64,000 bases of DNA, taken from the NCBI RefSeq assembly GCF_041435115.1, contig NZ_CP108046.1, positions 3,906,001-3,970,000 on the forward strand, read 5' to 3'. The stretch is from Streptomyces sp. NBC_00289 (GTDB lineage: Bacteria; Actinomycetota; Actinomycetes; Streptomycetales; Streptomycetaceae). Position 1 is the stretch's first letter. The number at the start of each line of letters is the position of its first letter. The notes beneath the pieces are model-generated. The model had not been told where the DNA came from and did no database searches. It saw only the letters and a program-made list of their open reading frames with translations. The translations under genes and the position numbers were made by a program. Shown here piece after piece: positions 55,947-60,850 of the stretch.

Positions 55947-56699
55947 TCAGGCCCAGCCGCCGGTGAACCCGACGACCTCGCCGGTCACGAAGTCGGCCCG
56001 GCCGGAGGTGAGAAAGACGATCAGGTTGCCGATCTCGCGGGCGGTACCGAGACGTCCGATCGGCAGCAGGCCACGCAGCCTCTCCTTTCCGTCCTCGTCG
56101 CCCCAGGCCTCCTCGGGGTAGTAGGTCTCGCTCTCCAGGAAGTTGGGGGCGACGGCGTTCACCGTGACGTAGTGCGCGGCCAGTTCACGGGCCGCCGCGC
56201 GCGCGAACGCGGAGGCCGCGGCGCGCAGCGAGCTGTAGTAGGAGAAGCCCGGCTCGGGCCGGACGGGGGCCGCCGAGGTGACCAGGACGATGCGCCCGTG
56301 GCCCTGGCGCTTCATCTGGGCGGCCGCCTTCGCGACCACGGCGACCGGGGCCACCAGGAGCGCCTCGGCGGCGGCCCGCAGCTCGGTCACGTCCGCCTGC
56401 TCCACCGGGAGGTACTTGCCGGGGTAGACGTCGTTGCTGATCACCGCGTCCAGGCGGCCGTACCGCCGGATCGCCCAGGTCACCGCGCCGGCGGGCGTCT
56501 TGGACGGACAGGCCACCACGCACTCGTGACCGGCCTCGAACTTCGCCCGGTTCTCCTCGTCGCCGAAGGTCTCGTCCTGGCAGACAACGGTGAATCCCGC
56601 GGCGGCCAGCGCGGCGACGGCGCCCGGTCCGGCGTAGAGCGTCGCGTGCGTGACCACGACGACGCGTTCGGCCGGCGGATCGGCCGTCGGCGGACTCAC
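55947..56699 (-). CDS. Halohydrin dehalogenase-like SDR
   Basis: This 250-residue protein is an SDR-fold enzyme without the usual Tyr-x-x-x-Lys. It has Ser142, Tyr155 and Arg159 (TSAAPVRPEPGFSYYSSLR), the spacing of +13 and +17 that marks halohydrin dehalogenases such as HheC. The nucleotide motif is likewise changed to THATLYAGPG, as in that family, where it is a halide site. Further HheC-like segments are CQDETF, VISNDVY, APNFLESETYYPEEAW and VTGEVVGFTGG. Such enzymes close vicinal haloalcohols to epoxides with loss of halide. The GTG at 56699 overlaps the preceding gene as GTGA, so it is coupled to the halogenation genes. Confidence 0.87.
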   Translation of the reverse strand: MSPPTADPPAERVVVVTHATLYAGPGAVAALAAAGFTVVCQDETFGDEENRAKFEAGHECVVACPSKTPAGAVTWAIRRYGRLDAVISNDVYPGKYLPVEQADVTELRAAAEALLVAPVAVVAKAAAQMKRQGHGRIVLVTSAAPVRPEPGFSYYSSLRAAASAFARAAARELAAHYVTVNAVAPNFLESETYYPEEAWGDEDGKERLRGLLPIGRLGTAREIGNLIVFLTSGRADFVTGEVVGFTGGWA

Positions 56700-58003
56700 G
56701 GCGGGCTCCCGGCGGCCAGGGCCGGAGCCGGGGCGGACGCGGGGCGCGGGTCCGGGGCGGATCCGCTCCGGTGGGTCGCCTCGTCGATGAAGGCCTGGAT
56801 CAGGGTGAACATCTCGTCGTCCGGGGCGAGGATGTCGTGATGGCTGCCGGTCGGCCGTACCTCCAGGGTGCTGCCCGCTACCAGCTCGTGCAGGTGCCGG
56901 GCGGTGTCCGGGTGGGTCATCCGGTCCGTGCGGCTGGTGACGATCAGCGTGCGTGAACCGGCCCGGCGTGCCGCCTCGTTGGCGTCGTAGGCCATCAGCG
57001 CGTCGTTCAGCCTCGCGTAGCGGTGGAAGAGTTCGAGGTCCCCGTACGGGTAGAGCACGAAGGGGGCCAGGCGGGTCGGTACGCCGAAGAGCATGTTCGG
57101 GTCGAGGAACATGGTGAGGACCTCGCGGGCCCGCGCCGGGCTGCTGCCCGCACCGGCGAGCAGTCCCTGGAACTGGGTCTGGAACGGGGTGCGGGTGACG
57201 CCGGGGCCGAAGTTGAGATCCGGGTGGAGCATGGTCGACGAGCCGACCCGATCGCCCAGGCGAGCGGCCGCCGCCAGGGCCACGGGCGCCCCGCCGCAGA
57301 TGCCGACCAGATGCACGCGCCCCGGTCCGTACTCCTCGACGACGGCGACGAGCTGCGCGATCTCCTCGGCGAAGTCGCCCCGGGGAGTGGGCAGGGACGC
57401 CCAGTCCCCGAAGAGATAGGGGTTCTCGTAGGTGATGACCCGGTGGCGGGCGGACAGGCGGTCGAGCCAGGGGGCGAAGAGTCCGGCCGGTACTCCGCAG
57501 GGCGGCACCAGGACGATCGCCTCGTCACCGGGGTCCCCGGCCGCGAAGCTCTCGAACGGGGGCAGCCCGTGGGGTGTCACGCGGTGGCTGTCCGGCAGGG
57601 CGGCGCTGCCCGAGCGCACGGACCGCACCGGTCCCGTGGTGTCGCCCGTCCCCGGCCCCGGCAGCTCACCCGCGCTGTCCGCGAGCGGCCGCCAGGAACC
57701 GAGTTCCAGGTCGCAGAGGTTGCTGAGGGCGACCTCCAGGCCGGACGGGCTCTCCGGCGCGGGCGCCACGAAGCGGGGCACGGTGAGCCGGTGGGCGGCG
57801 CCGAGACGGGCCAGCACCTCGTTGCACCGGTCCACGGCCCGCGCGTCGAACGTGTCGGCCTCGGCCTCGTCGACGGGGAACACCCGCAGGGTCGCGTCGG
57901 CCGCGGTCAGCAGCGGCTGAGCCAGGTCGAGGGCGGTCAGCAGCGGGGCCAGTGCCTCCGGCCCGAGCCGGGTGTCACCGCCTGTGCTCTCGGCGCCGGC
58001 CAC
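56696..58003 (-). CDS. SyrC/CmaE-like aminoacyl carrier-to-carrier transferase
   Basis: The GTG at 58003 lies just after the halogenase stop and gives 435 residues; a longer upstream reading would lie inside the halogenase gene. A ~150-residue N-terminal part precedes an alpha/beta-hydrolase. The nucleophile motif is HLVGICGGAPVAL with Cys236, and a His lies in PTGSHHDIL. A Cys nucleophile is what SyrC and CmaE use to move chlorinated aminoacyl groups between carrier domains. Size, fold and position behind a SyrB2-like gene support the same job here: moving (chloro)threonyl from the A-T didomain to another T domain. Confidence 0.82.
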   Translation of the reverse strand: MAGAESTGGDTRLGPEALAPLLTALDLAQPLLTAADATLRVFPVDEAEADTFDARAVDRCNEVLARLGAAHRLTVPRFVAPAPESPSGLEVALSNLCDLELGSWRPLADSAGELPGPGTGDTTGPVRSVRSGSAALPDSHRVTPHGLPPFESFAAGDPGDEAIVLVPPCGVPAGLFAPWLDRLSARHRVITYENPYLFGDWASLPTPRGDFAEEIAQLVAVVEEYGPGRVHLVGICGGAPVALAAAARLGDRVGSSTMLHPDLNFGPGVTRTPFQTQFQGLLAGAGSSPARAREVLTMFLDPNMLFGVPTRLAPFVLYPYGDLELFHRYARLNDALMAYDANEAARRAGSRTLIVTSRTDRMTHPDTARHLHELVAGSTLEVRPTGSHHDILAPDDEMFTLIQAFIDEATHRSGSAPDPRPASAPAPALAAGSPP

Positions 58004-58960: not shown

Positions 58961-60850
58961 CTAGCGGGAAGCGGTGGCGAGCCGGCGGTTGACGGCGGCG
59001 CTGAGGACGCCGATGTTGGCGCCCTTGCTGAGCGTCGAGATGTTGAGCGAGAGCCGGAACCTCTTGTTGACGATCTGCAGCATGTGGATGAGCGAGAAGG
59101 AGGTGCCGCCGAGGTCGAAGAACTCGTCGGTGTCCTTGACCCCCTCCACGCCGAGGACCTCGGACCAGATCGCCCGCAGCTCCTCCTCGACCGAGGCACC
59201 GTCCGAGCCGGTGGCGCCGACGGCCGTGCCGGCGCTCGTCGCGTCGCGGGTGTGGCGGGTCTCCGCGAGGCGGGCGTCGAGCAGCTTGCCGAGGACGGAC
59301 TGGTCGAGTTTGCCGTTGACGGTGACCGGTATCTCCTCGATGCACAGGTACATCGACGGAGCCATGTAGTACGGCAGCGCCTGGGCCACGTCGGCACGCA
59401 GCTCGGCGGCGAGGGTGTCCGGGTCGGCGTCGGTCACCGGGTAGGCGACGAGGCGGGGGTCGCCGCCGCCGAAGTCGGCCGCGGTGACGACGGCGTCCCG
59501 GACCGCCGGATGCCTCCTGAGCCGGGCCTCGATCTCGCCGGGCTCGATCCGGTAACCACGGATCTTCAGCTGACGGTCGGCGCGGCCGACGTAGGCGTAC
59601 TCGCCGGGGCGCACCTGCACGCCCAGGTCACCGGAGTTGTACCAGCGCTCGGTGGTGCCGTCGGCGGCGGTGCGCTCGAAGAAGCGCTCGGCGGTCAGCT
59701 CCGGGTGGCCGAGGTAGCCCCGGGCGAGCCCGGCGCCGGCGACGTGAAGGATGCCCTCCTCACCGGGCGGCAGGGACTTGCCGTCCTCGCCGACGATGTC
59801 GAGGCGCAGGTCGGAGAGGGGAACGCCGATCGGGCTGAGTCCCTCTCCGGCGAGGTCCGCCTCCTCGATCCGCCGCCAGGTGACATGGACGGTGGTCTCG
59901 GTGATCCCGTACATGTTGATCAGCGCGGGGCTGTCCAGGCCATGGCGTTCCGCCCACGGGGCGAGCATCCGGTGGTCCAGTTTCTCGCCACCGAACACGA
60001 CGTAGCGCAGGGCGAGTTCGGCGGAAGAGGCACCGGCCTCGGCGTCGGCGTTGATGAAGTTACGGAAGGCGGACGGGGTCTGGTTGAGGACGGTGACGCG
60101 CTCACGACGCAGCAGTTCGTGGAGGCCGCGCGGGTCGCGGGCGGTGTCCCGGTGGACGACGACCAGGCGGCCGCCGTGGAGCAGCGCGCCCCAGATCTCC
60201 CAGACGGAGAAGTCGAAGGCGGCCGAGTGGAAGCCGGCCCACACGTCGGTCTGGTCGAAGCCGAAGACCTCGCTGGTGGAGGTGAACAGCCGGACCACGT
60301 TGCGGTGTTCGATCTGCACGCCCTTGGGGGCTCCCGAGGAACCGGATGTGAAGATCACATACGCGAGACCGTCGGCGTCCGTGGCCTGCGCCAACTCCTC
60401 GACGCCCTCTTCGGGTTCGGAGTCGACGCGGACGACCCGCCGCCCGTTGACCAGCTCCGCGGTGTCCGCACCGGTCACGACCAGGCCCGAGTCGCACTGG
60501 CCGAAGACGAAGTCGCGGCGCTCGGCCGGATAGGCCGGGTCCACGGGGACATAGCCCGCGCCCGCCTTGAGGATGCCGAGGATGCCCACGATCAGGTCCC
60601 GGCCGCGCTCGACGCACAGGCCCACCCGCTGGTCGCGGCCCGCACCGGCCGCGCGCAGGACGGCGGCGAGCCGCCCGGCCCGGGCGTCGAGTTCCCGGTA
60701 GGTGAGGTTTCCGCGGTGGTCGGTGACCGCCACGGACTCCGGGTACCGCCGGGCGACGCGCTCGAAGTTCTCGTGCAGGGTGAGCGATTCGTCGAGCGGC
60801 ACCTGCCGATTCGGGAATTCGCTGGAAATCGCGCCAGGATTCACGAGCAT
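58961..60850 (-). CDS. Stand-alone A-T didomain activating threonine (SyrB1-like)
   Basis: I use the ATG at 60850 (GGAAAGGG upstream), giving 629 residues; a GTG at 60874 lacks a ribosome site. The A domain has YVIFTSGSSGAPKG (A3), AFDFSVWEIW (A4) and INMYGITETTVH (A5). The specificity residues read D-F-W-N-V-G-M-V-H-K, one change from the usual Thr code D-F-W-N-I-G-M-V-H-K. The T domain is FFDLGGTSFSLIHML (Ser about 581). It is the first gene of the main operon and its product is the substrate carrier for the halogenase. Confidence 0.9.
   Translation of the reverse strand: MLVNPGAISSEFPNRQVPLDESLTLHENFERVARRYPESVAVTDHRGNLTYRELDARAGRLAAVLRAAGAGRDQRVGLCVERGRDLIVGILGILKAGAGYVPVDPAYPAERRDFVFGQCDSGLVVTGADTAELVNGRRVVRVDSEPEEGVEELAQATDADGLAYVIFTSGSSGAPKGVQIEHRNVVRLFTSTSEVFGFDQTDVWAGFHSAAFDFSVWEIWGALLHGGRLVVVHRDTARDPRGLHELLRRERVTVLNQTPSAFRNFINADAEAGASSAELALRYVVFGGEKLDHRMLAPWAERHGLDSPALINMYGITETTVHVTWRRIEEADLAGEGLSPIGVPLSDLRLDIVGEDGKSLPPGEEGILHVAGAGLARGYLGHPELTAERFFERTAADGTTERWYNSGDLGVQVRPGEYAYVGRADRQLKIRGYRIEPGEIEARLRRHPAVRDAVVTAADFGGGDPRLVAYPVTDADPDTLAAELRADVAQALPYYMAPSMYLCIEEIPVTVNGKLDQSVLGKLLDARLAETRHTRDATSAGTAVGATGSDGASVEEELRAIWSEVLGVEGVKDTDEFFDLGGTSFSLIHMLQIVNKRFRLSLNISTLSKGANIGVLSAAVNRRLATASR

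Follow-up and report, generated by a model that had tools for sequence, protein, structure and literature searches.

The DNA analysed here is a stretch of 64,000 nucleotides of Streptomyces sp. NBC_00289 (contig NZ_CP108046.1, positions 3,906,001 to 3,970,000; hereafter the window), which is carried by an 11.0-Mb genome. Four adjoining genes on its minus strand (55947-60874) form a cassette in which a member of the halohydrin dehalogenase (HHDH) family stands beside a threonine-loading protein, a SyrB2-type halogenase and an alpha/beta-hydrolase with a cysteine nucleophile. The products of these genes probably form a 4-chlorothreonyl carrier, which the HHDH would likely close to a 3,4-epoxy-2-aminobutyryl unit. 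This reading builds on the order and conservation of the genes, on their families and motifs, and on the clade and modelled fold of the HHDH-like protein. From these findings we infer each reaction and product; together with the analogy to characterised enzymes they strongly suggest a chemistry of chlorination followed by dechlorination. The four genes are:

55947..56699, minus strand: HHDH-family protein of 250 amino acids with T17/Y22/G24 and S142/Y155/R159 (motifs, PDB matches, tree, AlphaFold and Foldseek)
56696..58165, minus strand: alpha/beta-hydrolase whose nucleophile elbow, GICGG, contains Cys (Pfam Abhydrolase_1, alignment; start codon uncertain)
58005..58949, minus strand: SyrB2-type Fe/2-oxoglutarate halogenase of 314 amino acids with H123-x-A125 (PDB matches, NCBIfam)
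58961..60874, minus strand: stand-alone adenylation-thiolation (A-T) didomain with a threonine code (Pfam, specificity code)

The true start of the Cys hydrolase is unsure because its listed ATG lies within the halogenase gene.

The putative dehalogenase is assigned to the HHDH family on both of its motifs, its side of the tree and the fold of its model. The two family motifs as defined in PMC11976700 (papers are cited by accession, each for the excerpts retrieved) occur exactly, T-X4-F/Y-X-G as THATLYAG at residue 17 and S-X12-Y-X3-R as S142-X12-Y155-X3-R159. Searches with both motifs had previously given 37 new HHDH genes, and because a selection of 19 enzymes was confirmed to be active (PMC4989007), proteins bearing the motifs have a good record. 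Among 70 homologues at E 1e-20 or better (query included), motif 1 was present in 58, motif 2 in 66 and both in 55, and the S-X10-14-Y-X3-K motif of short-chain dehydrogenases/reductases (SDRs) in none; S142, Y155 and R159 were invariant across 34 aligned sequences, query included.

Comparison of the protein with HHDHs and SDRs, as the original prediction had proposed, pointed to the former. The top 11 PDB sequence matches are HHDH or 'dehalogenase' entries (E 1.3e-45 to 3.9e-28), several of them HheC mutants. A Foldseek search with the AlphaFold model (pLDDT 91.0, from the 34-sequence alignment) returned HHDH or dehalogenase chains at all of ranks 1-15 (TM-score 0.90-0.92), with an ordinary SDR following at rank 16 (0.81); the list includes the HheC structure 4ixw, which was solved with ethyl oxiranylacetate. 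The tree comprised 50 rows, namely 36 of the 70 homologues, six PDB HHDHs, seven SDRs of the same genome picked for their SDR motifs and the homologue of genome G754. A branch with support of 100/99 set the query and all six PDB HHDHs apart from the seven SDRs; the 17-row clade that contains the query was sister to a 6-row group containing HheC (97/89; midpoint root, some rows long, HheC among them). The original prediction had hung on the protein not falling outside the HheC clade, and it indeed lies on the HHDH side, beside the HheC group. In an atorvastatin process an HHDH converts 4-chloro-3-hydroxybutyrate to the epoxide (PMC8341948); this compound, which known HHDHs accept, is the amine-free parallel of the proposed substrate.

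The neighbouring genes point to that substrate. The specificity code of the A-T didomain (DFWNVGMVHK, aligned from hand-set anchors and with the final position assumed to be K) is identical in the four other loci with an HHDH gene, is the same or a close variant in nine other halogenase loci, and is tabulated as threonine in PMC9113097. The halogenase matched SyrB2 (2fct; E 1.1e-152), CytC3 (E 2.5e-122) and, weakly, one more entry in the PDB, and reached 476 bits with the NCBIfam model 'chlorinating enzyme' (cut-off 226.3). Aligned with SyrB2, it carries the alanine that replaces the Fe-binding carboxylate (H-x-A, here H123-x-A125). SyrB2 forms 4-chlorothreonine on a carrier, and this, together with the adjoining A-T didomain, suggests that carrier-bound threonine is chlorinated at C4. 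The Cys nucleophile of the alpha/beta-hydrolase was present in all ten aligned sequences; the protein is a putative SyrC-like acyltransferase. The four-gene set of the original prediction was hence found where it had been placed, with the threonine code, the SyrB2 match and its His123-x-Ala125, the Cys alpha/beta-hydrolase and the Ser/Tyr/Arg triad.

In the direction of transcription, the genes follow the order LuxR-type regulator, A-T didomain, halogenase, Cys hydrolase, HHDH, thiolation-thioesterase (T-TE) protein, MbtH-like protein and nonribosomal peptide synthetase (NRPS). This order was shared by all five readable places in which the HHDH is at least 68% identical: the window, Streptomyces galbus DSM 40089 (L009) and the genomes G385 (L015-L016), G310 (L017-L018) and G754 (L053). 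Five occurrences, with HHDH identities as low as 68%, make the arrangement more than chance. The S. galbus locus is 92% identical to the window in the HHDH, 93% in the halogenase and 84% in the NRPS and the A-T didomain, and in both the HHDH-like and Cys hydrolase genes overlap by 4 bases. HHDH homologues at 57-60% (P0014-P0017) were also seen, one of them from a Myxococcales metagenome-assembled genome.

From the window's genus 392 genomes were drawn, apparently one and the same set for both searches; the HHDH (E 1e-35) was present in 4 of them, the halogenase (E 1e-50; identities of 41-100%) in 41 and both in 3. The original prediction had proposed to look for such co-occurrence with SyrB2 homologues in other genomes. 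Two of the HHDH-bearing genomes hold the closest halogenases of the draw (81 and 83%, the next being 72%), and the halogenase of G754 is 82% identical. Because the halogenases nearest to that of the window are those accompanied by an HHDH, the cassette with HHDH looks like one branch that gained the HHDH gene. From 38 halogenase-bearing genomes without an HHDH match, nine other SyrB2-type loci were taken, and no HHDH homologue was present at E 1e-4 in the 20-kb stretches round any of the nine halogenases. A motif match at locus L057 was dismissed as chance, since no HHDH homologue occurs there at that threshold. The Cys hydrolase adjoins the halogenase in eight of the nine loci; in the ninth (L058) a weak partial match lies elsewhere.

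When genome contigs were scanned with the HHDH-like protein alone, the S. galbus locus (92%) and two others of 30-31% identity were returned, three in all, and in the stretches around the latter two no other protein of the cluster was found at E 1e-8. The draws from the class and from the family each gave 2 of 394 genomes, in both cases only the window's genome and G754; as their results look alike, they are not counted as independent. No relatives of the HHDH turned up in viral contigs or among plasmid (E 1e-25) and phage (E 1e-10) records.

In the pathway that we propose, the A-T protein is predicted to load threonine, which the SyrB2-type halogenase would chlorinate at C4. The Cys alpha/beta-hydrolase likely transfers the chlorothreonine from the A-T didomain to the T-TE protein, as in the case of SyrC. 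The HHDH-family protein then likely expels chloride from the vicinal chlorohydrin (C4-Cl/C3-OH), which would give the 3,4-epoxy-2-aminobutyryl unit. By analogy to HheC, Tyr155, aided by Arg159 and Ser142, would take the proton of the C3-hydroxyl, the alkoxide would attack C4, and chloride would exit into the pocket of motif 1 (T17, Y22, G24). With this halide pocket in place of the nucleotide site, the reaction would do without NAD. Dehalogenation could take place while the unit is carrier-bound, once it is part of the peptide, or after release.

The genes downstream and upstream of the cassette include the following:

54776..55855, minus strand: T-TE protein with Cys replacing Ser in the thioesterase, GSCAGG (Pfam, alignment)
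54520..54771, minus strand: MbtH-like protein (Pfam)
46091..54523, minus strand: NRPS of 2810 amino acids with two adenylation (A), two thiolation (T) and two condensation (C) domains and one methyltransferase (Pfam counts, translation)
44128..44808, minus strand: YqcI/YcgG-family protein (Pfam 27.9 with a cut-off of 27; conserved in G385 and G310)
41660..42682, minus strand: VioC/GntD-type oxygenase (GntD model 397 bits with a cut-off of 345; 79% in G385 and G310)
40269..41663, minus strand: Na+/H+ antiporter-type transporter (conservation extends to G385 and G310)
61298..62398, minus strand: LuxR-type helix-turn-helix regulator (Pfam GerE, below its cut-off; synteny beside the cassette)
62450..63550, minus strand: TauD-type Fe/2-oxoglutarate oxygenase (89% identical in S. 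galbus; the compared stretches of G385 and G310 have no match over 30%)

The domain order of the NRPS, read from its translation, is A-T-C-A(MT)-T-C, the methyltransferase (MT) being placed by reading within the second A domain. Neither an A nor a T domain follows the last C domain; the next T domain is that of the T-TE protein, which has no A domain. We propose a short peptide of glycine, a probably N-methylated residue and, as third residue, chlorothreonine or the epoxide, which the last C domain would join on the T domain of the T-TE protein. The code of the first A domain (DILQLGLIWK) presumably denotes glycine, and that of the second (DPCTMAAVDK) matched no paper in the literature search. 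The residue selected by the second A domain is probably N-methylated and, given the VioC/GntD-type oxygenase, perhaps arginine-like; conservation of this oxygenase in G385 and G310, together with the YqcI/YcgG-family protein, hints that an arginine-like residue in modified form occupies this position. The thioesterase has a Cys nucleophile (GSCAGG or GACAGG) in all five aligned sequences, and release of the peptide by it may be unusual. Between the second T and the last C domain of the NRPS, about 300 residues resemble, by eye, the second half of an epimerase domain.

Further genes were noted around the cassette. A gene for an RsgA-type ribosome GTPase (42900-44096, minus strand) lies between those of the YqcI/YcgG-family protein and the VioC/GntD-type oxygenase and possibly has a housekeeping or self-protection function. 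At and past the right end of the window (L067:1058-7242, minus strand), genes for an aspartokinase-like protein, an aspartate-semialdehyde dehydrogenase, an EamA transporter and a methylaspartate-mutase-E-like protein might supply threonine or a methylaspartate-derived unit. Part of the aspartokinase-like gene is present in S. galbus, too.

Other functions of the HHDH-like protein have to be weighed. Pfam and NCBIfam return only generic SDR models for it, and none of the best 25 of 187 NCBIfam models reaches its cut-off. This would suit an NAD(P)-dependent SDR of the ordinary kind, such as a dehydrogenase or reductase working on the beta carbon, with no more than a resemblance to HHDHs. With THATLYAG replacing the Gly-rich nucleotide motif, Arg159 replacing Lys, and both the tree and the structure search placing the protein with HHDHs, we consider such a function extremely improbable; an ordinary SDR identity was rejected on motifs, tree and fold. 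A catabolic HHDH operon was likewise rejected. The Pfam scan, which was given a selection of the open reading frames located from 33.5 to 64 kb of the window and in 16 kb upstream, named no epoxide hydrolase among the neighbours, the sole Abhydrolase_1 match being the Cys protein, and there is therefore no sign of such an operon. The first-described HHDHs came from strains that had been obtained by enrichment with small halogenated compounds (PMC4989007), which would suit a role in salvage or self-protection, the peptide keeping its chlorothreonine and the HHDH destroying free 4-chlorothreonine or chloropeptide that leaks or returns. We regard this as improbable, since the HHDH gene lies between those of the Cys hydrolase and the T-TE protein in five of five places and overlaps the hydrolase gene in both the window and S. 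galbus, a reactive compound would be turned into a still more reactive epoxide, and the nine other SyrB2-type loci manage without an HHDH.

It is possible, if doubtful, that the epoxide is made but is transient. The HHDH or the peptide itself would in this case reopen it with a nucleophile. The residue would end as 4-hydroxythreonine, as a ring (closed, for instance, by the nitrogen of an amide or amine) or as some other substituted unit, leaving a metabolite with neither chlorine nor epoxide. HHDHs also open epoxide rings with azide, cyanide and nitrite (PMC4989007, PMC11976700), mutants of the largimycin pathway give C19-hydroxy compounds instead of the C18/C19 epoxide (PMC13200230), and the Cys nucleophile of the T-TE protein makes an unusual release possible; the lack of a named epoxide hydrolase among the Pfam-scanned neighbours speaks against it.

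Several points weigh against the proposal that the HHDH closes a 4-chlorothreonyl carrier to an epoxide unit. The protein is only 32-35% identical to the matched HHDH chains, and D- and G-type HHDHs sit among ordinary SDRs in the Foldseek list (ranks 21, 38, 40 and 41). Synteny covers relatives of at least 68% identity, and homologues at 49-63% (from metagenomes and a Myxococcales metagenome-assembled genome) fall outside it. The co-occurrence of HHDH and halogenase in the 392-genome draw has a p-value of 0.004 that ignores the kinship of the genomes. In G142, one of the four HHDH-bearing genomes of that draw, no halogenase was present at E 1e-50, and the HHDH-like gene (L019:7343-8062; 43% identity) has a different neighbourhood: its contig carries genes for a thiolase and an SDR but for none of the other cluster proteins. 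This gene perhaps reflects another role for the HHDH family. Furthermore, the largimycin epoxide is made without an HHDH homologue according to its authors, so that the family is not required for such a step (PMC9396626).

The original prediction knew of no described pathway that ends in an epoxide through an HHDH. Its part on the epoxide needs correction, as the idea that no epoxide route from chlorothreonine is known is refuted by largimycin (PMC9396626, PMC13200230); its part on the HHDH holds within the open-licence papers searched. Among the matches listed from this literature, no other paper placed an HHDH in a biosynthetic cluster: the phrase 'halohydrin dehalogenase' together with biosynthetic words led to two papers with a reference only (PMC13027431, PMC6995120), one on ring opening by nitrite (PMC13411527) and one in a synthesis context (PMC8341948), and no HHDH was detected in the excerpts of PMC6941271. 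New is the HHDH-family gene within a chlorothreonine NRPS cassette; the concept has a precedent in largimycin, the enzyme none within the literature searched. We incline, with little more than even confidence, to the wider view that this is the first HHDH with a biosynthetic job, dedicated to closing carrier-bound 4-chlorothreonine in a conserved NRPS cassette, and that the natural role of the family lies in natural-product epoxides and predates pollutants. If the cassette does form an epoxide, this points to a natural task for enzymes otherwise known chiefly for breaking down pollutants, and an HHDH gene behind a SyrB2-type halogenase would be a genetic handle for finding epoxide-bearing peptides.

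The syringomycin system (SyrB1, SyrB2 and SyrC; SyrB2 being PDB 2fct) has a SyrB2-type halogenase in common with the cassette and presumably also the A-T partner, the Cys acyltransferase and a final C domain that depends on a residue supplied in trans. Syringomycin keeps its chlorine and, to our knowledge, its pathway has no HHDH. In cryptic chlorination leading to cyclopropanes (CmaB/CmaC, KtzD), chlorine is a leaving group on a carrier-bound amino acid, as proposed here, but a carbanion instead of the neighbouring hydroxyl closes the ring, and the dehalogenating enzyme comes from another family. HheC and HheA (PDB 1pwx, 1zmo, 4z9f) and 6a41 share both motifs, the Ser-Tyr-Arg triad, the fold (TM-score 0.90-0.92) and the position in the tree with the window protein and differ from it in sequence, at 32-35% identity. 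The first HHDHs were obtained from degraders of halogenated chemicals, whereas the HHDH of the window lies in a biosynthetic cassette; a review states that physiological functions of HHDHs other than the degradation of halogenated compounds cannot be excluded (PMC4989007), and the cassette supplies a defined substrate that is expected from the neighbouring enzymes.

Like the cassette, the largimycin cluster (lrg) of Streptomyces argillaceus contains a stand-alone threonine loader, a halogenase (LrgH) and a transfer protein for 4-chlorothreonine, which in largimycin ends as the C18/C19 epoxide (PMC9396626, PMC13200230). Loss of LrgH gives compounds in which the plain side chain of threonine takes the place of this epoxide (PMC9396626). 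Largimycin is a hybrid with a leinamycin-type AT-less polyketide synthase (PKS) and, by its authors' account, has no HHDH homologue, whereas the window combines an NRPS with an HHDH-family gene, and the Pfam scan described above named no PKS domain that would indicate an AT-less type I PKS. In PMC13200230, the largimycin authors put dehalogenation before off-loading, and the excerpts of that paper name no enzyme for the epoxide step. The 2022 study (PMC9396626) assigns the activity of an HHDH to the missing step and describes the known HHDHs as confined to organisms that degrade halogenated xenobiotics. It reports that S. argillaceus lacks an HHDH homologue and that enzyme candidates are not clear, LrgB being mentioned among the proteins of unknown function. 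The enzyme that converts chlorothreonine to the epoxide was thus left open there, and the cassette offers a candidate for it. As the cassette also defines the substrate to be expected, the questions of which enzyme is missing and of what HHDHs do in nature become one assay.

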